Shown here: in pieces, positions 2,837 to 62,092 of the stretch
How positions within the stretch are numbered: the first letter of the stretch is position 1
How the letters are laid out: each line of letters opens with the position of its first letter
NCBI GenBank assembly: GCA_902728285.1
Contig: CACVBU010001149.1
Span: 887,748-951,747 of the forward strand
DNA: 64,000 nucleotides
Origin: Clytia hemisphaerica
Taxonomy: Eukaryota; Cnidaria; Hydrozoa; Leptothecata; Clytiidae
Direction of reading: 5' to 3'
The notes under the pieces: generated by a model
The model's database searches: none
Told to the model about the DNA's origin: nothing
Seen by the model: the letters and a program-made list of their open reading frames with translations, nothing else
Made by a program: the position numbers and the translations under genes

Positions 2837-3704
2837 CTGTGATGCTCACGGTAAGAAAATCTTCATTATCTTATAAATTAGATAGAAAGGTAAGGTATTG
2901 ATTGTAATGGTGTGATCCCAGGTGTGATGATACTATCGCCCGTTAAATTCAAAACAAACGCACTAAAATACAGAGGAGTCTCTTTAACTTTCGAATCAAT
3001 GGCTAGATTTCCTCCTTCATTCGAACTATTTTGTTTCCCCTATGCTGTTTATTCCACTTTAAAAAGAAAGGCGTCAACTGACAAAAGGTAATAGCTGATA
3101 CTAAAGTTAGTCCAAACTCTCGCCTAGGTTGACTGCTTAAATAGATTCAGATCAACTTTGTTTAGACTTAATCTAGCTAAGGAATACACAGAGATAGTGT
3201 TCGTCTGTTTGGATAGATATTGCACCATCTCTATTCTCTGATAAGTGTTAATAGGAACTCCGAGCAGCCCTGTCTCAAAGTCATCCGGTGTGAACTTTTC
3301 AGCCAATAAAGAAACACCTATTTTTTTTAACATCCAAAAATTTTGTAGTCATTGGATTTTCTTAACTTTTCACCGTTTTGTCAGTATTTTGTGCGATTTC
3401 TAAAATAAATTTGATATTTTAGAGTGCGGTGCCTTAAAATTTTCTTGGCGTGTTCTTCGTATTCTGGTCATCGAAGCCATACGTAAACGTGTAATGAACA
3501 GTTATATGGAGAAACAGGGAATGGAGAATAATCACTTGATTCTAATGAGGGGATTCTAAATTTATCAATTACAGCTTAAAAACCCAGTAAAGGATTCGAC
3601 AAATTCTCTTTCCTAATAGGAAATTCCATGGTTTTTAATAGCCGATCTGTGTAATAGCCGTGATTTCCCGGCTAATTTTCCAAGAGTGTAGAGTCTGTAA
3701 CACG
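2837..3704. other. Intergenic, no gene called
   Basis: The stretch between two palindromic MITEs is AT-rich. A 69-codon open frame on the minus strand (3333-3124) has fairly normal amino-acid composition, but I recognise no domain and see no splice or start context. I leave it uncalled. Confidence 0.5.
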
Positions 3705-20209: not shown

Positions 20210-20929
20210 ATGCTTCCAGTGTATAGTTTCAGTATTTTTAATGCTATGAATGCTTCCAGGCGATAGTTTCAATATTTTTAATGCTATGAATGCTTCCAGG
20301 CGATAGTTTCAGTATTTTTAATGCTATGAATGCTTCCAGGTGATAATTTCAATATTTTTAATGCTATGAATGCTTCCAGGCGATAGTTTCAATATTTTTA
20401 ATGCTATGAATGCTTCCAGGCGATAGTTTCAGTATTTTTAATGCTATGAATGCTTCCAGGCGATAGTTTCAATATTTTTAATGCTATGAATGCTTCCAGG
20501 CGATAGTTTCAGTATTTTTAATGCTATGAATGCTTCCAGGTGATAGTTTCAATATTTTTAATGCTATGAATGCTTCCAGGCGATAGTTTCAATATTTTTA
20601 ATACAATGAATGCTTCCAGGCGATAGTTTCAGTATTTTTAATGCTATGAATGCTTCCAGGCGATGGTTTCAATATTTTTAATGCTATGAATGCTTCAAGG
20701 CGATAGTTTCAATATTTTTAATACTATGAATGCTTCCAGGCGATAGTTTCAATATTTTTAATACTATGAATGCTTTCAGGCGATAGTTTCAATATTTTTA
20801 ATGATATGAATGCTTCCAGGCGATAGTTTCAATATTTTTAATGCTATGAATGCTTCCAGGTGATAATTTCAGCTATTTTTAATGCTATGAATGCTTCCAG
20901 GCGATAGTTTCAGTTTTTTTAATGCTATG
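20210..20929 (+). repeat. 40-bp minisatellite, 18 units
   Basis: The unit is CGATAGTTTCAATATTTTTA followed by ATGCTATGAATGCTTCCAGG. Eighteen head-to-tail copies fill 720 bp with few substitutions (for example AATATT/AGTATT and CGATAG/TGATAA). There are no unique spacers, so it is not CRISPR-like. The array stops inside a unit exactly where the retroelement's TGTAAC begins, so the retroelement probably inserted into the array. Confidence 0.92.
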
Positions 20930-48497: not shown

Positions 48498-49217
48498 NNN
48501 NNNNNNNNNNNNNNNNNNNNNNNNNNNNNNNNNNNNNNNNNNNNNNNNNNNNNNNNNNNNNNNNNNNNNNNNNNNNNNNNNNNNNNNNNNNNNNNNNNNN
48601 NNNNNNNNNNNNNNNNNNNNNNNNNNNNNNNNNNNNNNNNNNNNNNNNNNNNNNNNNNNNNNNNNNNNNNNNNNNNNNNNNNNNNNNNNNNNNNNNNNNN
48701 NNNNNNNNNNNNNNNNNNNNNNNNNNNNNNNNNNNNNNNNNNNNNNNNNNNNNNNNNNNNNNNNNNNNNNNNNNNNNNNNNNNNNNNNNNNNNNNNNNNN
48801 NNNNNNNNNNNNNNNNNNNNNNNNNNNNNNNNNNNNNNNNNNNNNNNNNNNNNNNNNNNNNNNNNNNNNNNNNNNNNNNNNNNNNNNNNNNNNNNNNNNN
48901 NNNNNNNNNNNNNNNNNNNNNNNNNNNNNNNNNNNNNNNNNNNNNNNNNNNNNNNNNNNNNNNNNNNNNNNNNNNNNNNNNNNNNNNNNNNNNNNNNNNN
49001 NNNNNNNNNNNNNNNNNNNNNNNNNNNNNNNNNNNNNNNNNNNNNNNNNNNNNNNNNNNNNNNNNNNNNNNNNNNNNNNNNNNNNNNNNNNNNNNNNNNN
49101 NNNNNNNNNNNNNNNNNNNNNNNNNNNNNNNNNNNNNNNNNNNNNNNNNNNNNNNNNNNNNNNNNNNNNNNNNNNNNNNNNNNNNNNNNNNNNNNNNNNN
49201 NNNNNNNNNNNNNNNNN
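48498..49217. other. Assembly gap, 720 N
   Basis: A run of N of exactly 720. Any open frame across it is meaningless. Confidence 1.
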
Positions 49218-51527: not shown

Positions 51528-53421
51528 AGATATCTCGAGAAAATGCTAAAAAAAAGCCACTAGAAAAAAGCCACCTATCTTAGCGATTGAAAAATATTGT
51601 TGAAATTGAAAATTTTGAAAAAGAACTTCCGGGAAATAAAGTAGAGATGTTAAAGTTTTTCATGCAGCAAAAATTTTTGTAAAACCTCTTTTCCTCTAGA
51701 TTTGAGAGAAATTTTAAATTTGATCGACGTTTTGGGGCCACATACTGTAATGACTCCACACGATAGCCCGATAGTAGTTCAATTTCTTTGTGTTTAATTT
51801 TTATCTTACAGTGTTTCTTGAAACTAAGTGTCCGCGCGATAAGCCTTAAAGTACACATAAAAACACTAGGTTACAAAGTCTAAGAATATCAAATAACCTA
51901 GAGATTGTGTATTTACTTTCTGGCACTGGTATAGAAAAATCAATATATACAAATCAAGCGCTAAAAAGTTGATCTAACAGTTTACTATAAGGCTATTGTG
52001 TGGAGTCATTACGTAATGTTTTCGTCGCCAATATAACTAGGTTTAAATGGTATCCTAATTAGCAAAACGTCTATTGCATTCAATTGATCGATTATTCAAC
52101 GATTGGCTCTAAGATGATCTACAGATCGATTGTTTAACGGTTGCAAGTTCAATTCATATTTCGATCAATATTAATATTCAAGATTTTAGAATAGGATCAA
52201 TCACCGTTAAATTATCGATTGGAAAATGTATCAATTGTGCGAGTCTGGTTTATAAGAAATGGAAATCAATAAATATTGGTCAACCTGCTCGAAATTCTCA
52301 AAATTGTTAACTCCACGTTTCAATGAAATTTTCTCGAGTTCTACCGACTGTCCCAGAAAAAAGTCCCCCTCTTTGAAGTGAATCTTCTCGAGTTCTATGA
52401 ACTTTGAAAGCATCATGCATTGGAAAAAGGATTGATAAAATTAAATTTTGAGGGGGCATTTGTTAAATTTAGTCAACTAGATAAAAAGTTATGGTCTAAA
52501 TGCTAAAAAATTACTTTTCAAAAAAATGCGAAAAATTAGGGTTCTAAGAGTCACTTTTTCGCCTTGTCTCTCTAAGGGTAACTTTATTCTCTGTTAGGGC
52601 CGGTTTTCGCAGCTCCGGTTTTACATACTTTTGACATTCTTCAACCCTAGTACTTCCTGGTTGTTTAATTTGATTATTTCATCGATGAATAATCAAACAC
52701 TATACCAAATCGTCTTGTTTATTATTGAAATAAGTATCTTGTTCTTTTTAATAGAATTGAGCAACAAAGTTGACCAGCTATCAATGGAATCAAAATCTGT
52801 AAAGGGTAAAGTTTTAGTTATGATTCTCATTTTTACTATCCATACCGGTAAACCTTTACGAATTCAATCAATCAATCCATTCAAAAAGAAATGACCTTCT
52901 TTGTTGGATATAACTTTAGGGAGGTCCTATAAATTAACCATGTTAAGTTAGTCCGTCCGTCTGTTATAAGCTTTTCTCGGGATGAGCTCATTAGATTTTT
53001 CTGATTTTTCGCACAATGATTTGAAATGGTAATTCCCAAAATTTGGCGGAGCCCGAATTTCGAAAAAGAATTCTCCCAGTTGCCAGATCCTGAAGTGTCA
53101 CGGAAAAAAAATTGTCAGAATTTTCTCGACAATTTATTATTAGTTTTTTCTATTTTTTGTACATAGATGCGTATTAATACTGCTATCAATGTGTCTTACT
53201 TACTTGATAATTTCTTTATCATGGAGATGCCCAAAGCTTAGCATCGTTGGGTTTCCTAAGAAATCATCTTTAATCCCGTAAGGAACTCCTTAAAAATTGC
53301 TGCAACAGCCAAAAACCGGCGTAAAGCGGGTTTCCTTCACTATTTCGAGAATATCAGGTATACAGAGTGTCACTTGTTGCTCTTTTGAACCTTAAAAAAT
53401 ATTTATTTGCATTCCTTCCAG
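51528..53421. other. Region upstream of the NB-ARC exon; no further exon confirmed
   Basis: AT-rich. An open frame at 52631-52894 has a hydrophobic stretch (LYQIVLFIIEISILFFLIEL) that could be a membrane segment, but it lacks splice context and similarity. The NB-ARC gene must have at least one upstream exon (acceptor at 53421); I could not identify it. Confidence 0.4.
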
Positions 53422-53913
53422 ACCTAACAAGGACACATTGGAACTTGCCAGAGCCTGTTTCCATCTTCTTTGGACGAGAAAATTTGATTAAATCCATTCA
53501 CTTGAAACTTCAACAAAATCAAGCAGTTGCTTTGAGTGAAATAGGAGGTGTGGGGAAAACACAAACCGCTGCAAAGTTCGTTCAAATACACAAGGATGAA
53601 TATCAGAAGATATTTTGGATTTCTGCTGTCAGCCTCAAGAAATCTTTGAGCGAGATTTTGTGTGCAATTGGTTGTAAACAACTAATACCTGATGAACCTT
53701 CGATGGAAACTCTTGCTTTCATTTTCCTCTCTAAGATTTTTGAAGGCTCCAAAAAATCGCTGATTGTATTGGATGACGTCACTGAGGTCACAAAAGACGT
53801 CACTTCATTCATTCGACATGTGAGAGAAAAAATCAGCTTATTGTTGATATCTCAAAGAAGGGATTGGAAAGATTATGGTTTGATTCAAATTGCTGTTCCA
53901 TGTTTCCAAGAAC
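53422..53913 (+). pseudogene. NB-ARC/TPR gene, 5' part (interrupted)
   Basis: The exon begins after acceptor CATTCCTTCCAG (phase 1) and encodes the start of an NB-ARC ATPase: a FFGRENLI entry motif, P-loop GGVGKTQT at 53544-53564, the IFWISA strand, Walker B LIVLDDV at 53760-53780, and a LLLISQRR sensor-type strand. NB-ARC proteins are nucleotide-dependent switches in innate-immune and apoptosis pathways; cnidarians have many. The frame is cut at 53913 by the palindromic element. A TAG just inside the element (53916) would end translation. The sequence resumes in frame at 60408. Confidence 0.82.
53908..53913 (+). repeat. Target-site duplication AAGAAC (left)
   Basis: AAGAAC directly before the element's AGTAGTGTAAAT end. 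The same six bases follow the right end at 60402-60407. Confidence 0.92.
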
Positions 53914-53949
53914 AGTAGTGTAAATATGATAGTTCTACTCCAGCATGCT

Positions 53950-54262
53950 CAAAGTGAGTGACTCAATGTGTGAAAAACGACTCAATGTGTGAAAAATGAC
54001 TCAATGTGTGAAAAACGACTCAATGTGTGAAAAACGACTCAATGTGTGAAAAACAACTCAATGTGTGAAAAACGACTCAATGTGTGAAAAACGACTCAAT
54101 GTGTGAAAAATGACTCAATGTGTGAAAAACGACTCAATGTGTGAAAAACGACTCAATGTGTGAAAAACAACTCAATGTGTGAAAAACGACTCAATGTGTG
54201 AAAAACGACTCAATGTGTGAAAAACAACTCAATGTGTGAAAAACGACTCAATGTGTGAAAAA
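53950..54262 (+). repeat. 19-bp tandem repeat in left terminus
   Basis: About 16 units of CGACTCAATGTGTGAAAAA. Single-base variants such as TGACTC and CAACTC alternate. A few more units occur near 54420-54450. Confidence 0.9.
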
Positions 54263-54608
54263 TAATGCTGAAAATGTGTCTTATTGCTGATTAATGATTT
54301 CGTATAAAAGCTTTAATCGAAGGTGAATGTTCATAGTGTCAACATCAAAGGAAAGCAGAGAGCAATGTGTGAGAAAATAATGCTGAAAATGTGTGAAATC
54401 AAATATTCCAAACAAGACAAGTGTGAAAAACGACTCAATGTGTGAAAAATAATGCTGAAAAAATGTGCTCCCACAAACCTAATTAAAGCTATGGGTAAAT
54501 ATTCTGTCCGTTTGAGTTTGCTCTAAGATCTGGAATACTTGGTTCACTACTAGAGGATTTCTTTACTCCCTTGGATTTATATTTTTTACGCTATCTCTCT
54601 GTTAAACA

Positions 54609-55199
54609 ATGGCAACACCAAATCAAAAAAGAAGTTTCTCCTGTTCAGATGCTCCAAAGAAGAAACGGTGTTTCAAGAGCAGAATTTCAAGGTGGAAGAA
54701 TGACCGAACCTTAAATTTCAATGTCGAAAACTACTTTGATCAAGAAGAGGAATTCTTTATCGTAACTCAAAAACTTAGTGGGCAACATACCAACTCGATC
54801 ATTTTCTCTCCTGGCAAAGCTGATCTTCTCATCGCTAATGTCACTGGTTATCTTTTGGAATGGAAACGAAAGAAGTTCAAAAATGAAATGCAAAACGTGT
54901 TTTTTTAAGATCATGCGAGAAAAAGTCTTGCAAGTGCGGCGAGAAATGTGTGCGAAGGATGTTTGGAGGACTATCCAAGTCAACTTCATCACTACTGTCT
55001 CACAACGGAGACTAAGCAATTTGTAGAAGATGCATTTTCGAATCTCCTTAAAGTGGTCGATGAAGAGGAAGCCAACGAAATTTGCAACAAGACGCTACAG
55101 ATGAATGGTGAAATCAAATATTCCAAACAAGAACTCTTAGTTGATGAACAATGGGTCAGAAATTTGAAACAATTAATTTTAAAATATTTAAATTGTTAA
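54609..55199 (+). pseudogene. Cys/His-rich basic protein, left-arm copy, frameshifted
   Basis: Left-arm counterpart of the intact gene at 59741-59133. The start (MATPNQKRSFSCSD) and basic KKKRCFKSR region are intact. A T run at 54900-54906 has seven T where the right arm has six, shifting the frame after residue 98. The remainder (CEGCLEDYPSQLHHYCL onward) lies in another frame to 55199. Confidence 0.75.
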
Positions 55200-55212
55200 A
55201 TTATTTTATTAC

Positions 55213-55704
55213 TCATAATATACCGTTACATGAAATTAGAAAAGAAATAAATAAAGCTATAAATGAAATAATCAAATTGTTGTCTTTACGTCTGTATTGA
55301 TGTCTTATAGAAAAATGAATGTCGTCAATATAATAAATCAGCGTGTTAAGATAATCCACGTGTTCGATTTTCTTTTGTTGGGTACAGTTCTTTACACCTT
55401 TTGCTTTCTTTGATTGAATTGAGACCAGTCTCTTTTTATCTTTGTAGTGAGCGTGATGGTACATTGAGTACATCTTCGCTTTTAACTTGATAATAATACT
55501 CTCATTCAGCAAAGCCTTAAAAGTAACTCACTTTTTTTAGTCTTACTTACATTAAGGCAGTTGAGCTTGACGAAAGCCTCAAATAACTTCAATAAAATAC
55601 CTTGAAGACTTTCAAAAAGCGAACGTTCCCAAATTCATTCTTTACAATTAAAAATAAGACGTCATTGTTTTCTTTAATCACAATTACTGATGCCTTGGTC
55701 ATTT
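55213..55704 (-). pseudogene. Small spliced membrane protein, left-arm copy, frameshifted
   Basis: Counterpart of 58649-59138. Exon 1 on minus starts at ATG 55704 but has two extra bases (TGTGTG where the right arm has TGCA) near 55680, breaking the frame before the donor at 55601. Exon 2 (55515-55213) is intact and ends in a hydrophobic FIALFISFLISC segment. Confidence 0.65.
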
Positions 55705-55982
55705 TGTTATTACAATACTCCATTTCATTTATATTTATACATTTCTTCTAGCTTTTGTTAGTGCTAACATAACATCCTTGACCTGTTACTTTTATTCTTA
55801 AACAACGTAGCTGAAACTTAAAGCATCATATATATTATCATGATGTTTCAGTAACCCTACCTTACGCTAAATGATTGACCCAAAGAATAAAAGAAATAAA
55901 ATACAAGTATAATCTAATCAGAGAGCAATATATTCAGAGCTTTAATGAAAATACAAGTGTCCATTACAGAGATCGATTCGTT

Positions 55983-56423
55983 TCATTCTTTCATTTCATC
56001 ATTTGAAAATTGAATTATTTGTCGATGAATCAAAAACCGACGTTTTTCAATGGCAAAATCCAATGCTTCCTCAAAGTCCATATCTTCTTCGTCTCTAACT
56101 CTTCGCAAAGTTTGCATGATGGCTTTATGAGTTATATTATTTTTCATTGCCCGGAGAAAAAGGATCTTGTATTTATAAATTTCATTAATTGATAAACCAG
56201 TCTCTTCGCATTCGTTGAACATAGTCTCCCAGATATTTATCGTTTCTTCATCACCTTGAGATTGTTCACTGTCACCAGAATCTTCATCATTGGACATTGA
56301 CTCACTGTCTGGATAATCCTCATCTTCTTCCTCTTCAGATTCTTCAGGGTGGGCTTTTGCAACATGGCGATTGTAGTTGCTTTTTGTGGAAAAGGTCTTT
56401 TCGCAATCGTCACATTCATACAT
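55983..56423 (-). CDS. Single C2H2-finger acidic protein, left-arm copy
   Basis: 146 residues. Residues 1-25 are one C2H2 finger (YECDDCEKTF...NRHVAKAH). Residues 26-65 are a strongly acidic Glu/Asp/Ser stretch. The C-terminal 75 residues are helical and charged (INEIYKYKILFLRAMKNN, RRVRDEEDMDFEEALDFAI). The protein is identical to the right-arm copy. The start is the ATG before TATGAATGTGAC. A single finger plus an acidic domain suggests a DNA-bound regulator of the element. No family is recognised beyond the finger. Confidence 0.75.
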   Translation of the reverse strand: MYECDDCEKTFSTKSNYNRHVAKAHPEESEEEEDEDYPDSESMSNDEDSGDSEQSQGDEETINIWETMFNECEETGLSINEIYKYKILFLRAMKNNITHKAIMQTLRRVRDEEDMDFEEALDFAIEKRRFLIHRQIIQFSNDEMKE

Positions 56424-56639
56424 CGTCGCCCTTGGTTTTAAACATTATGAAGAAATAGAATCTTTTCTTGCCAATTTATAGGTCAAATGCAAGAGGAATC
56501 CGATAAAGGGTTTCTCTTTAGGATCTTGAATTCTTCTTCTTCAATTGAATACGCTCATGTCTTTTTTTTTCTTTTCTTTACAATCGATTTTGGGACTAAG
56601 CTAGCTTGATCGTATTCTACATTTCCTAGTCTATTTTAT

Positions 56640-57095
56640 TAATTATTTTGGGACTATTACCTAATTTTTGTTTGGGATTACCTAATCCCTATTAAAGATT
56701 ACCTAATCCCTCTTTGGGATTACCTAATCTAAGGCAATCCTTTTTGAGATCACCTAATCCATGTTTAAGATTACCTAATCTTTAATTGGGATTATACTGA
56801 ATCCATGTTAATATGTTTTGGAGATCACCTAATCCCTCTTTAAGATTACCTAATCCTTCACTTAATCTCTCTTTGGGATTACCTAATCTCTGTTTGGGTT
56901 TACCTAATTCAAGCTAATCCTTATCTCAGATCACCTAACCCCTATTATATTATAAGATTTCCTAATCCCTCTTTGTAATTACCTGATTCAAGTAAATCTT
57001 TTAGAAATCACCCAATCCCTTTATTACTAGATTACCTAATCCCTCTTTGGGACCAACTAATCCTCATTTGAGATTATATGATCCCTTGGATTTTT
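56640..57095 (+). promoter_or_regulatory. Array of GATTACCTAATC-like sites, left arm
   Basis: About 17 copies of GATTACCTAATC or close variants (GATCACCTAATCC, GATTTCCTAATCC) every 20-40 bp, separated by CCCTCTTTGGG-like spacers. The site is an inverted repeat GATTA-CC-TAATC. It lies between the C2H2 gene's upstream side and the palindrome centre. Either a regulatory or replication site cluster, or decayed tandem repeats. Confidence 0.6.
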
Positions 57096-57120
57096 TCTTC
57101 CAATTCACATCATTAACTGA

Positions 57121-57224
57121 AATCGCTGGGCGGGGAACGCCGTCGGCGTTCCTTTTTAACAAAAAGGAAAAACTTTGGTAAGTGCTGGTACAGGGAACGC
57201 CGGAGGCGTTCCCCGCCCAGCGAT
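57121..57224. repeat. Palindrome centre with G/C hairpins
   Basis: Each arm's inner end holds an 8-bp hairpin GGAACGCC-n3-GGCGTTCC (57134-57152 and 57193-57211) preceded by CGCTGGGCGG. The 40 bp between them (TTTTTAACAAAAAGG ... GTGCTGGTACA) are the only non-duplicated bases of the element. Confidence 0.85.
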
Positions 57225-57249
57225 TTCAGTTAATGATGTGAATTGGAAG

Positions 57250-57700
57250 AAAAAATCCAAGGGATTATATAATCTCAAATGAGGATTAGTTGGTCCCAAA
57301 GAGGGATTAGGTAATCTAGTAATAAAGGGATTGGGTGATTTCTAAAAGATTTACTTGAATCAGGTAATTACAAAGAGGGATTAGGAAATCTTATAATATA
57401 ATAGGGGTTAGGTGATCTGAGATAAGGATTAGCTTGAATTAGGTAAACCCAAACAGAGATTAGGTAATCCCAAAGAGAGATTAAGTGAAGGATTAGGTAA
57501 TCTTAAAGAGGGATTAGGTGATCTCCAAAACATATTAACATGGATTCAGTATAATCCCAATTAAAGATTAGGTAATCTTAAACATGGATTAGGTGATCTC
57601 AAAAAGGATTGCCTTAGATTAGGTAATCCCAAAGAGGGATTAGGTAATCTTTAATAGGGATTAGGTAATCCCAAACAAAAATTAGGTAATAGTCCCAAAA
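57250..57700 (-). promoter_or_regulatory. Array of GATTACCTAATC-like sites, right arm
   Basis: Mirror image of the left array, reading GATTAGGTAATC on plus. It lies about 230 bp upstream of the right-arm C2H2 gene. Confidence 0.6.
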
Positions 57701-57927
57701 TAATTAATAAAATAGACTAGGAAATGTAGAATACGATCAAGCTAGCTTAGTCCCAAAATCGATTGTAAAATAAAGAAAAAAAAAAGACATGAGCGTATTC
57801 AATTGAAGATTTAAGAAGAATTCAAGATCCTAAAGAGAAACCCTTTATCGGATTCCTCTTGCATTTGACCTATAAATTGGCAAGAAAAGATTCTATTTCT
57901 TCATAATGTTTAAAACCAAGGGTGACG

Positions 57928-58368
57928 ATGTATGAATGTGACGATTGCGAAAAGACCTTTTCCACAAAAAGCAACTACAATCGCCATGTTGCAAAAGCCC
58001 ACCCTGAAGAATCTGAAGAGGAAGAAGATGAGGATTATCCAGACAGTGAGTCAATGTCCAATGATGAAGATTCTGGTGACAGTGAACAATCTCAAGGTGA
58101 TGAAGAAACGATAAATATCTGGGAGACTATGTTCAACGAATGCGAAGAGACTGGTTTATCAATTAATGAAATTTATAAATACAAGATCCTTTTTCTCCGG
58201 GCAATGAAAAATAATATAACTCATAAAGCCATCATGCAAACTTTGCGAAGAGTTAGAGACGAAGAAGATATGGACTTTGAGGAAGCATTGGATTTTGCCA
58301 TTGAAAAACGTCGGTTTTTGATTCATCGACAAATAATTCAATTTTCAAATGATGAAATGAAAGAATGA
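57928..58368 (+). CDS. Single C2H2-finger acidic protein, right-arm copy
   Basis: Identical protein to the left-arm copy (146 residues: one C2H2 finger, an acidic middle, a charged helical C terminus). Start ATG 57928, shortly downstream of the right-arm site array; stop 58368. Being identical in both arms while neighbouring genes have drifted is compatible with a young duplication or with selection. Function is unknown; DNA binding is inferred from the finger. Confidence 0.75.
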   Translation: MYECDDCEKTFSTKSNYNRHVAKAHPEESEEEEDEDYPDSESMSNDEDSGDSEQSQGDEETINIWETMFNECEETGLSINEIYKYKILFLRAMKNNITHKAIMQTLRRVRDEEDMDFEEALDFAIEKRRFLIHRQIIQFSNDEMKE

Positions 58369-58648
58369 AACGAATCGATCTCTGTAATGGACACTTGTAT
58401 TTTCATTAAAGCTCTGAATATATTGCTCTCTGATTAGATTATACTTGTATTTTATTTCTTTTATTCTTTGGGTCAATCATTTAGCGTAAGGTAGGGTTAC
58501 TGAAACATCATGATAATATATATGATGCTTTAAGTTTCAGCTACGTTGTTTAAGAATAAAAGTAACAGGTCAAGGATGTTATGTTAGCACTAACAAAAGC
58601 TAGAAGAAATGTATAAATATAAATGAAATGGAGTATTGTAATAACAAA

Positions 58649-59138
58649 ATGACCAAGGCATCAGTAATTGCAATTAAAGAAAACAATGACGTCTTATTTT
58701 TAATTGTAAAGAATGAATTTGGGAACGTTCGCTTTTTGAAAGTCTTCAAGGTATTTTATTGAAGTTATTTGAGGCTTTCGTCAAGCTCAACTGCCTTAAT
58801 GTAAGTAAGACTAAAAAAAGTGAGTTACTTTTAAGGCTTTGCTGAATGAGAGTATTATTATCAAGTTAAAAGCGAAGATGTACTCAATGTACCATCACGC
58901 TCACTACAAAGATAAAAAGAGACTGGTCTCAATTCAATCAAAGAAAGCAAAAGGTGTAAAGAACTGTACCCAGCAAAAGAAAATCGAACACGTGGATTAT
59001 CTTAACACGCTGATTTATTATATTGATGACATTCATTTTTCTATAAGACATCAATACAGACGTAAAGACAACAATTTGATTATTTCATTTATAGCTTTAT
59101 TTATTTCTTTTCTAATTTTATGTAACGGTATATTATGA
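58649..59138 (+). CDS. Small spliced protein with C-terminal membrane segment, right arm
   Basis: Exon 1 58649-58750 (MTKASVIAIKENND..., ending FLKVFK) is joined in phase 0 to exon 2 58836-59138 (ALLNESIIIKLKAKMYSMYHH...). The 85-bp intron is GT...AG (GTATTT to TTTTAAG). The product is 134 residues: N-terminal beta-rich stretch, a basic middle (HYKDKKRLVSIQSKKAKG) and a C-terminal hydrophobic segment (LIISFIALFISFLILC) near residues 116-131. I do not recognise the family. The splice is inferred from the absence of a start before LLNES and the good sites. The left-arm copy is frameshifted. Confidence 0.55.
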
Positions 59139-59741
59139 GTAATAAAATAATTTAACAATTTTAAATATTTTTAAAATTAATTGTTTCAAATTTCTGACCC
59201 ATTGTTCATCAACTAAGAGTTCTTGTTTGGAATATTTGATTTCACCATTCATCTGTAGCGTCTTGTTGCAAATTTCGTTGGCTTCCTCTTCATCGACCAC
59301 TTTAAGGAGATTCGAAAATGCATCTTCTACAAATTGCTTAGTCTCCGTTGTGAGACAGTAGTGATGAAGTTGACTTGGATAGTCCTCCAAACATCCTTCG
59401 CACATTTCTCGCCGCACTTGCAAGACTTTTTCTCGCATGATCTTAAAAAACACGTTTTGCATTTCATTTTTGAACTTCTTTCGTTTCCATTCCAAAAGAT
59501 AACCAGTGACATTAGCGATGAGAAGATCAGCTTTGCCAGGAGAGAAAATGATCGAGTTGGTATGTTGCCCACTAAGTTTTTGAGTTACGATAAAGAATTC
59601 CTCTTCTTGATCAAAGTAGTTTTCGACATTGAAATTTAAGGTTCGGTCATTCTTCCACCTTGAAATTCTGCTCTTGAAACACCGTTTCTTCTTTGGAGCA
59701 TCTGAACAGGAGAAACTTCTTTTTTGATTTGGTATTGCCAT
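59133..59741 (-). CDS. Cys/His-rich basic protein, right arm, intact
   Basis: 202 residues on minus, start ATG 59741. The N terminus is basic (KRSFSC, KKKRCFKSRISRWK), nuclear-localisation-like. The middle has KLSGQHTNSIIFSPGKADLL and an amphipathic basic helix. Residues around 112-130 hold a Cys/His cluster, CEGCLEDYPSQLHHYCL, a probable zinc site (C-x2-C...H-x2-C). The C terminus is acidic then basic. I recall a similar C-x-G-C...PSQ..H..C pattern from uncharacterised proteins of mobile DNA in animals, but cannot name the family. The left copy has a one-base T insertion; this one is open. Confidence 0.65.
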   Translation of the reverse strand: MAIPNQKRSFSCSDAPKKKRCFKSRISRWKNDRTLNFNVENYFDQEEEFFIVTQKLSGQHTNSIIFSPGKADLLIANVTGYLLEWKRKKFKNEMQNVFFKIMREKVLQVRREMCEGCLEDYPSQLHHYCLTTETKQFVEDAFSNLLKVVDEEEANEICNKTLQMNGEIKYSKQELLVDEQWVRNLKQLILKIFKIVKLFYYS

Positions 59742-60084
59742 TGTTTAACAGAGAGATAGCGTAAAAAATATAAATCCAAGGGAGTAAAGAAATCCTCTAG
59801 TAGTGAACCAAGTATTCCAGATCTTAGAGCAAACTCAAACGGACAGAATATTTACCCATAGCTTTAATTAGGTTTGTGGGAGCACATTTTTTCAGCATTA
59901 TTTTTCACACATTGAGTCGTTTTTCACACTTGTCTTGTTTGGAATATTTGATTTCACACATTTTCAGCATTATTTTCTCACACATTGCTCTCTGCTTTCC
60001 TTTGATGTTGACACTATGAACATTCACCTTCGATTAAAGCTTTTATACGAAATCATTAATCAGCAATAAGACACATTTTCAGCA

Positions 60085-60356
60085 TTGATTTTTCACACAT
60101 TGAGTCGTTTTTCACACATTGAGTTGTTTTTCACACATTGAGTCGTTTTTCACACATTGAGTCGTTTTTCACACATTGAGTTGTTTTTCACACATTGAGT
60201 CGTTTTTCACACATTGAGTCGTTTTTCACACATTGAGTTCGTTTTTTCACACATTGAGTCGTTTTTCACACATTGAGTCGTTTTTCACACATTGAGTCGT
60301 TTTTCACACATTGAGTCATTTTTCACACATTGAGTCGTTTTTCACACATTGAGTCA
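60085..60356 (-). repeat. 19-bp tandem repeat in right terminus
   Basis: About 14 units of TTTTTCACACATTGAGTCG, the reverse complement of the left array. The unit count and variants differ from the left (for example GAGTTCGTTTTTTC near 60236). Confidence 0.9.
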
Positions 60357-60401
60357 CTCACTTTGAGCATGCTGGAGTAGAACTATCATATTTACACTAC
60401 T

Positions 60402-60407
60402 AAGAAC
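60402..60407 (+). repeat. Target-site duplication AAGAAC (right)
   Basis: Exact repeat of 53908-53913 directly after the element's right end ATTTACACTACT. Confidence 0.92.
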
Positions 60408-62092
60408 AAGAATCCATTGGCTTCTTACAGAATGAACTTTCTTCAGCCAGCCAACATGATCTCTCCATTTTAGCGAATCGTTTACAATCATTACCTTTAG
60501 CCCTTCACCAAGCCATTTGTTACATCAAAAAACATAAAGTTCCTCTACACAAATACATCGAACAATTTGAAGCATGCAGAAAAAGTGTTTTGGGAATGAA
60601 AATCAATTCCTTTACTGAATATGACAAAACATTGTTGACAGTTTGGGATATGGCTTTTTCGAAGATTTGGGTCGAATCAAAGAATGCTCTTTTGATCTTG
60701 GGAATGATGGCTTTCATGGACAATCGAAAAATCAACAAAAAGACGTTCTTTTATTTTGATAAAGTTGACGAATTTGAATTAAATGAAATCATCTCACTGC
60801 TTGGTCAGTATTCATTGGTCAACGAGCGGAATGGATGTTTAGAAATTCACAGTCTTGTGCAAAAAGTTATCCGCTATCGTATTGAACAAGAACAGTTTGT
60901 TGAGGATGAAAGTCCGTTGACACTGCTTGAAGATGTTCTTTTGAAAATTGAGGCCTCTGTTGAAAATTTGGTTATAAATGATGACCAGGAGGATTTATGG
61001 TACATTCATGTTTTTTGTTTGATCATGAGTGGTGCACTCAATGCTATCAACTTTGATGCTTCCCTTGTGTTAGATATAGCCACAGGCAGAATGAAGATGG
61101 AAAACTTATACCTACTTGCTGAACTTTTTGTTAAAGTTGTGTTAAAACAATATAGGTTGTCTCGAGATGTGAAAACTTTTGATATGCTGTTGTGTTGTCA
61201 TCGTCATTTCATATATGCGTCAAGTCAATTAGGTTTACTTAATGTGAATGAGATTTTTTCTTTTGAAAAAGAGTTTTCGGCAGAGCTTGAAGAACATTCT
61301 GTAGAAGTTTACCAGTGGAAGCTAAAGCAAGCTGAGTTATATAATATACATGGAAGAGTGTCGTTATTCAGTGATGTCGTTCAAAATTTATTCAATGAAC
61401 TGGTCAAGAAGAAAGGATTTGATAATGTTAAATTAAGATTGGCGAGGCTTCTTTCTGTTAATGATGTTGAATTTTTGTTGAATTCCGTTGACACAAATAA
61501 TCTCAGTGACACGGACTTTCTGATGTATTATAATGCAAAATGTTCTTTATACATCAACAAGGGTTGCTTTGATTTGGCCGAACAAGTCATGAAGAATTGG
61601 AAAGAACACATACACAGACAACCTTTTTCTCGATCGTCTCATTTTAACTTTACACAAAAGCGTTGCTTTTTACTTTACAAGAAAGGAAATTACAACGAAG
61701 CACTACTTACATGCGATGAACTTAAACGAGACATTGTTTTTACTGATGCAGATGTTCTCATTTGGGAAGCCTTGATTTTGATCAAATTAGGAAAGTTCAA
61801 CGAGGCAGAAGTGTTATTTGATCACTTTAATCAACGCAATAATAATGGATTAATCATTAGAATCAGTTCATACCTGAAATTTCGAAAGCACGACTTTGAG
61901 GCAGTAGAAAATCTCCTCACAAATGTGGAAGATGAGGATTTGTCAAATATTTTGTTTTTGGTAAAGGAATATGCGAAACTGCATCGACAATTCGAAAATA
62001 ATAAATCGAGAGAAATGGTTGAACGATGCTTGCAAATGAAAAAAATTGTAAATGAATTATTTCAAGTAGAATTGGATTCGATTGATCTTTGA
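60408..62092 (+). pseudogene. NB-ARC/TPR gene, 3' part (interrupted)
   Basis: Counting from the last host base before the element, the frame resumes here without a break and stays open to TGA 62092 (about 560 codons). It begins with the rest of the NB-ARC: SLPLALHQA, the GLPL-type motif, at 60488-60514. A winged-helix region follows (AFSKIWVESKNALLILGMMAF, HSLVQKVIRY), then a long helical region with TPR-like pairs (YNAKCSLYINKGCFDLAEQV, RCFLLYKKGNYNEALLTC, ILIKLGKFNEAEVLFDHF). An in-frame ATG at 60590 could allow an N-truncated product, but without the P-loop it would not bind nucleotide. The whole gene is probably null only because of the insertion. Confidence 0.82.

Follow-up and report, generated by a model that had tools for sequence, protein, structure and literature searches.

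A Polinton-derived palindromic element family of foldback shape in Clytia hemisphaerica, with arms that appear to be matched copy by copy

Positions 53914-60401 of a 64,000-nucleotide stretch of the genome of the hydrozoan Clytia hemisphaerica (contig CACVBU010001149.1, positions 887,748 to 951,747; this whole stretch, G000:C793:887748-951747, is called the window) are occupied by a palindromic mobile element, located at C793:941661-948148 of the assembly. We regard it as something new: a Polinton-derived element with a foldback shape and duplicated, selected genes. No palindromic or foldback Polinton was found described among the open-licence PMC papers listed, PMC6431247, PMC8504770 and PMC11071296 included. 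The reading favoured here, with a probability of roughly two in three (0.67), is that of a non-autonomous, foldback-type Polinton family that is mobilised in trans and whose arms are matched through a hairpin intermediate. A protein-primed extrachromosomal stage would presumably belong to its cycle, and the apparent renewal of the two halves together in each copy suggests that the DNA may fold back on itself at about the time of insertion. Whether animal Polintons still replicate as free linear DNA is a question on which, to our knowledge, direct evidence is scarce. Arms re-matched copy by copy would constitute a genomic record of a copying step, comparable to what repeat identity is for long terminal repeat (LTR) retrotransposons, would make free-linear replication testable by setting arm divergence against insertion age, and would trace a foldback shape to Polintons. 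Long palindromes are generally considered unstable; a near-perfect palindromic, gene-carrying 6-kb element is nonetheless verified here at 13 loci of one family (A, to which the window element belongs) and at 9 loci of a second (B).

The window element consists of two inverted arms of ~3.2 kb, the left (53914-57153, + strand) with the terminus AGTAGTGTAAATATG and the right (57194-60401, - strand) ending ...CATATTTACACTACT, around an asymmetric 40-nt centre (57154-57193). Aligned with each other, the arms agree at 3195 positions and are separated by 16 substitutions and 11 indels, of which the longest are a pair of 18 bp in the outer tandem arrays and a pair of 9-10 bp inside the centre; over the 2.2-kb body, 9 of 2198 positions differ. 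A near-identical inverted repeat of this length cannot be chance, and the folding of 131 bases around the centre stands at z = -14 relative to shuffles. The element begins with AGTAG and ends with CTACT, and is bounded by a 6-bp target-site duplication (TSD), AAGAAC, at 53908-53913 and 60402-60407. Each arm has an outer array of 19-bp units (~16 units at 53960-54262 on the + strand of the left arm; ~14 at 60089-60355 on the - strand of the right), three open reading frames (ORFs), and an inner array of GATTACCTAATCC, a motif also given as GATTACCTAATC (56656-57050, +; 57304-57690, -). Mini-palindromes flank the centre on its left (GGAACGCCGtCGGCGTTCC, 57134-57152) and on its right (57194-57212). 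Most of the element is therefore made up of long inverted repeats with internal repetition, as in foldback elements. An initial annotation, made from the letters of the window, had already described a 6.5-kb near-perfect palindrome with a 40-bp join, its AAGAAC duplication, and the array, three ORFs and inner array of each arm; this description is borne out, down to the exact coordinates.

This palindrome is one of many. The assembly that was searched comprises 417 Mb in 951 contigs; the terminal 687 bases find 56 matches in it, many of them forming inverted pairs, and a subterminal 21-mer, when up to 2 mismatches are allowed, has 31 hits, which make up 13 loci with two facing ends and 5 single ends. 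One of the 13 is a non-palindromic element of ~15.8 kb in contig C285. Ten of the remaining 12 two-ended loci have perfect and mutually different 6-bp TSDs (AAGAAC, TCCCTC, GTAGTC, ATCAAA, AAAATC, GTGAGT, TATAGT, ATGACA, TAAGCA and TGAAGG), and the two-ended copies that were read have AGTAG...CTACT ends. The centre with its borders, 110 nt in all, was compared in 20 sequences from 18 loci. It aligns in full, at 92-100% identity to that of the window, in 12 (the window, C294, C128, C771, C108, C592, C769, C460, C295, C926, C824 and C884), with partial alignment in C296 and C453 and none in C659, C285, C338 or C773. Because the 12 complete centres are one sequence, the palindrome predates the spread of the copies: it is one member of a multi-copy mobile family with an inherited architecture. 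The initial annotation had proposed instead that it might be a one-off, the integrated snap-back form of a defective Polinton genome. The palindrome, its Polinton-type ends, a stub of a PolB gene and the mini-palindrome at the fold would all suit such an origin, but it is contradicted by the full common centre at 12 of 18 loci with different TSDs, and by purifying selection on two of the element's genes across copies; we reject it as very improbable. More improbable still is a false inverted duplication generated by assembly. Near-identity of arms, and the C453 and C884 regions, with N and mixed or truncated arms, are what such an artefact might leave; different flanks with perfect TSDs at 10 of 12 loci, differences confined to one arm, and the existence of two families are not.

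Several copies depart from the full form. The 19 regions checked for arms include two sides of one locus (L042 and L043) and two entries for a single element (L054 and L055); in L056 and L057 no inverted arms were seen. C453 retains a single complete arm, with a short fragment of the second and a run of N, and C926 is without most of its second arm. The right arm of C771 contains a further inverted, internally repetitive insertion of ~5 kb (L043:1899-6974). The C285 element (L054/L055, G000:C285:930872-946639) has ends of the same kind and the TSD GTTTGC, and carries frames with NACHT and HEPN_DZIP3 domains; its content may be an immune-gene cargo, or else host DNA trapped between a pair of ends.

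Inheritance of the architecture does not extend to independent inheritance of the two arms. Had the arms of an inherited palindrome evolved separately, the left arms of different copies would be as close to each other as the left and right arms of a single copy; this is not seen. Four comparisons speak for matching within each copy. Divergence between the arms of one copy is 0.00-1.67% in 13 two-armed copies (0.00-0.19% in six of them), the nearest other copy lying at 1.3-3.6% outside a young subgroup (arms with fewer than 300 aligned bases being left out). In a tree of arms of at least 1200 bases, which left C592 unjudged and omitted L043 on account of its overlap with L042, the two arms of a copy are sisters in 11 of 12 copies (supports 0.94-1.00). 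Substitutions private to a copy number 104 in both arms and 105 in a single arm (13 copies), and two copies both differ at only 6 of the 122 positions of arm difference. Finally, C460 (TSD TGAAGG) carries the terminal sequence and array of family B on both arms around a family-A interior, and its arms are identical at all 2157 body positions; a recombined end therefore came to lie on both arms. From these comparisons we conclude that the arms of each copy were probably matched at or shortly before insertion and drifted afterwards. This points to a shared-template or repair step near insertion; it does not indicate where the DNA was at the time, so that the initial annotation's talk of direct evidence for an extrachromosomal stage was too strong.

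A number of observations weigh against the favoured reading. The margins are narrow in some copies, with own arms against nearest copy at 1.35/1.57% in C659, 1.44/1.59% in C295 and 1.67/2.02% in C592; C296, at 1.45% against 2.83%, is counted with these older copies. In the young subgroup (C294, C128, C771, C884, C453 and C926) the copies say little because between-copy distances (0.18-0.5%) are as small as within-copy ones. The arms of C884, one of which is truncated and which has an N, are not sisters, and C453 and C295, two of the 12 two-ended loci, lack matching TSDs. The centre is the one place from which a founding fold-back can be read. As to the link with Polintons, the integrase-bearing C224 has a beginning similar to that of the family; the action of an integrase or polymerase on AGTAG ends is presumed; in the PolB-bearing relative L059 (contig C792), the DNA_pol_B_2 matches (E 0.004 and 0.008) are under the Pfam cut-off, though in the expected order, and the 221-aa frame to which the element's second ORF aligns has no Pfam or PDB match of its own. 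Long inverted repeats are found in foldback elements of other superfamilies, too (PMC2775673, PMC4079207), and the arms could have become alike through gene conversion once the element was in place.

This last point defines an alternative, in which the element is an ordinary foldback transposon whose arms are evened out by gene conversion in the chromosome, with no fold-back or extrachromosomal step. It can call on the long, internally repetitive terminal inverted repeats of foldback elements in other superfamilies and on the discussion of repeat homogenisation in Tetris (PMC4079207). It has to accommodate an arm divergence ranging over 0-1.67% and 105 one-arm private changes left unerased, so that conversion would have had to fail in the older copies, and also C460, recombined at both ends exactly to the TSD, where conversion must halt at the element's borders. 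We consider it unlikely, if the most serious of the rivals. Less probable again is that each palindrome is made afresh, from a single-arm, hairpin-ended source that forms a dimer through its hairpin at every insertion. The very low arm divergence of six copies and the single centre sequence would follow directly; on the other hand, no such single-arm source was seen, and inheritance explains the conserved asymmetric 40-nt centre equally well.

The arms contain genes, two of them under selection. ORF1 is open in the right arm (59133-59741, - strand, 202 aa) and interrupted in the left (54609-55199, + strand, as 99 aa and 83 aa); a homologue ~61% identical lies beside PolB pieces in L059. ORF2 (58839-59138, +, in the right arm; 55213-55512, -, in the left) is the probable PolB stub, and ORF3 (57928-58368, +, and 55983-56423, -) encodes a C2H2 zinc-finger protein of 146 aa. 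Ratios of nonsynonymous to synonymous substitution (dN/dS), computed from pairs with dS of 0.01-1, a choice favouring lower values, are 0.22 for ORF1 (15 intact arms, the L059 homologue among them, giving 73 pairs), 0.75 for ORF2 (14 arms; 45 pairs) and 0.15 for ORF3 (16 arms including one of family B; 108 pairs). Frameshifted arms (12, 9 and 9 for ORF1, ORF2 and ORF3, respectively) and arms with an in-frame stop (1, 4 and 1) were left out, and one C771 arm was counted twice for ORF1 and ORF2 through the L042/L043 overlap. Single comparisons across longer distances are in agreement: dN is 0.20 and dS 1.74 between window and L059 for ORF1, and 0.09 and 0.73 between window and family B for ORF3. 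By these ratios ORF1 and ORF3 are under purifying selection, and ORF2 evolves almost freely.

The identity of ORF2 derives from a relative in the host genome rather than from viral contigs. A stretch of 53 residues aligns with the final L059 piece, a 221-aa frame downstream of the two pieces that weakly match DNA_pol_B_2; the common stretch is, we take it, like the C-terminus of Polinton polymerases. Because the match is lost ~55 residues ahead of the end of that frame and ORF2 evolves almost freely, it is probably a PolB remnant, a truncated 3' end. Searches of PHROGs and PDB gave nothing useful for ORF1 or ORF2, nor did NCBIfam for ORF1; IMG/VR scans with the three ORFs found no relatives, and the ORF2 C-terminal motif, as a DNA pattern in viral contigs, hit 9 loci, none of which looked on inspection like a Polinton-type PolB. 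L059 also has, outward of its ORF1, a 355-aa frame with a HECT ubiquitin-ligase domain (L059:4872-5936). Among the element's ORFs there is no rve integrase with chromodomain and no match to a transposase of the P or Mutator superfamily; the three arm ORFs have no Pfam match to an A32-like ATPase, protease or capsid, and PolB is met in the element as the truncated C-terminal stub, not as a complete protein-primed gene. The initial annotation's statement that hallmark Polinton genes are absent thus holds for integrase, ATPase and complete PolB, and has to be amended for ORF2.

Polintons (Mavericks) are characterised by 6-bp TSDs and AG...CT termini. TSDs of this length are found at the 10 of 12 family-A loci, in the one family-B copy read and in the C285 relative; together with the ends, the PolB stub, an ORF1 held in common with larger PolB-bearing elements, and the presence of an integrase- and ATPase-bearing Polinton in the genome, they sustain the Polinton assignment that the initial annotation had made. 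Candidate helpers are at hand. DNA_pol_B_2 matches lie 10.8-12.3 kb from long ORF1-like frames on the same contigs, just over the cut-off in C835, C8, C65 and C224 and under it in C635; in a control search, E. coli also gave a match, under the cut-off. C224 has, in separate pieces, an rve integrase with chromodomain and an A32-like ATPase, with the PolB match on the same contig, and by these three genes qualifies as a Polinton on sequence grounds; it also presents AGTAGTAGG, followed by a 27-bp tandem array and then an ORF1-like gene. The end of C224 that was read makes it a candidate for an autonomous Polinton with ends in common with the family.

Family B repeats the architecture with other parts. 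All 9 of its loci that were fetched are palindromic, around a centre unrelated to that of family A. In C594, read across 6 kb, the arms are 2814 nt long and 99.3% identical, the outer arrays are of another unit than in family A, the TSD is GGACGA, ORF1 is decayed, and ORF3 is 81% identical to that of the window and open in one arm; the inner array is of the family-A motif, and a spacer of ~366 nt has no notable similarity to the A centre. The 8 further centres are all palindromic (arm identity 94.7-100%), 5 of them matching the C594 spacer throughout and C236 partly, with C38 and C717 shorter or rearranged; the GGAACGCC motif, that of the mini-palindrome fold, is absent from all 8. ORF3 serves as a wider probe: 131 matches, from the best 150 of 197 candidates, merge to 104 genes, which within 6 kb form at least 36 divergent inverted pairs and at least one convergent pair, with no tandem pair, and 32 unpaired genes (the two convergent ones included), among the matches listed. 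Inverted arms are verified by sequence for 21 of the 36 divergent pairs (12 A, 9 B), and the other 15 are presumably palindromic, to judge by gene orientation. Two of these 15, C273:1624730-1629113 and C674:302000-306534, encode proteins only 63-66% identical to that of the window and probably represent a third palindromic family.

Comparison with elements that have a single ORF3 indicates that the family-A arms are mosaic. In each, a Polinton end, comprising the terminus, the 19-bp array, ORF1 and the PolB 3' stub, is joined to a segment with ORF3 and inner array. The module shared with the single-ORF3 elements begins at about window position 55575 and runs inward, stopping before the inner array in C144. 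Several single-ORF3 elements (among the best 40 of 113 candidates) are bordered on either side by inverted copies of the inner array and what follows it, as far as the mini-palindrome (57134-57152); this is the point at which likeness to the long inverted repeats of other elements breaks off. The idea that such elements (C144, C649, C798 and others) end at the mini-palindrome was discarded; in these three, which were read, the inverted repeats extend outward past the point at which family A switches to its 40-nt centre. The fold point of family A thus coincides exactly with a 19-bp palindrome, the sort of site at which a strand might fold back and prime itself, which makes a snap-back origin plausible for the founding event. 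Since the A and B centres are unrelated, that event would have been separate in each family.

The mechanism that we envisage would start with this founding fold-back at the mini-palindrome, one such event giving rise to the palindrome of family A and a separate one to that of family B. Copies would then spread with the help of full Polintons, whose PolB and integrase would act on AGTAG ends. In each cycle the displaced single strand would fold into one long hairpin, as in an adenovirus panhandle with its short inverted terminal repeats, and copying or mismatch repair of the hairpin would make the arms identical before insertion. After insertion the arms would drift apart, so that arm-arm divergence would date the insertion. 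In adenovirus-type replication the complementary ends of the displaced strand pair with each other, and the resulting panhandle is the template for the next round (PMC9863843); a palindrome copied in this manner would yield a displaced strand that folds over its full length, and its arms would be matched in every cycle by repair or copying. If it is copied so, full-length folding would explain the LTR-like behaviour of the arms without a special enzyme, though it would be no proof of a free linear stage. A bolder version, which we regard as doubtful, has the palindromes as integrated dimers of a Polinton satellite replicon, a ~3.2-kb duplex that would exist outside the chromosome, with a hairpin at the 40-nt centre and an open AGTAG end; it would borrow a protein-primed PolB, to be copied through the hairpin into a palindromic dimer, and an integrase for its insertion, and use ORF1 and ORF3 as replication or maintenance genes of its own; the zinc-finger ORF3 would then perhaps bind the inner GATTACCTAATC array.

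The window insertion splits a host gene, of which an NB-ARC/TPR frame remains on either side of the element (5' part at 53325-53913 and 3' part at 60408-62092, both on the + strand). The NB-ARC match of the left part, at 22.8 bits, is slightly below the Pfam cut-off (23.5), and in the right part the TPR matches likewise fall short of theirs. Because the flanks, joined with a single AAGAAC, read as one open frame of 757 aa, either the insertion is recent or this gene copy is dispensable. A preference for NLR genes was considered and rejected (reading 8 other sites as empty gives at most 98 aa open), and disruption of an NB-ARC gene looks incidental. Elsewhere in the window are a tandem array of 18 units of 40 bp (20210-20929) and a 720-base run of N (48498-49217), either a gap in the assembly or withheld sequence.

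Among known systems, LTR retrotransposons provide an analogy: a copy starts out with two identical repeats, whose later divergence dates the insertion, but the repeats of the palindrome are inverted rather than direct and no reverse transcription is involved. Defective snap-back genomes are known from adenovirus; here the palindrome is integrated, inherited and the property of a multi-copy family. The adenovirus panhandle (PMC9863843) shares the annealing of complementary ends of a displaced strand into a template, with the difference that a palindromic strand would fold completely. With foldback elements such as Drosophila FB, Galileo and Tetris, the palindromes share very long, internally repetitive inverted repeats, a small middle and non-autonomous members. 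Foldback is a shape able to arise in different lineages (PMC4079207), and those foldback elements that have been assigned to a superfamily are mostly Mutator, Galileo belonging to P (PMC4079207, PMC2775673); the palindromes differ in having Polinton-type ends and genes, with selected genes in both arms. With Polintons/Mavericks, including those of adintovirus type, they have in common the 6-bp TSDs, the AG...CT ends, and an ORF1 and PolB C-terminus found also in PolB-bearing elements. They differ in lacking integrase, ATPase and complete PolB, in their size (~6 kb against 15-30 kb; PMC8504770) and in an inverted repeat that is the whole of the element.

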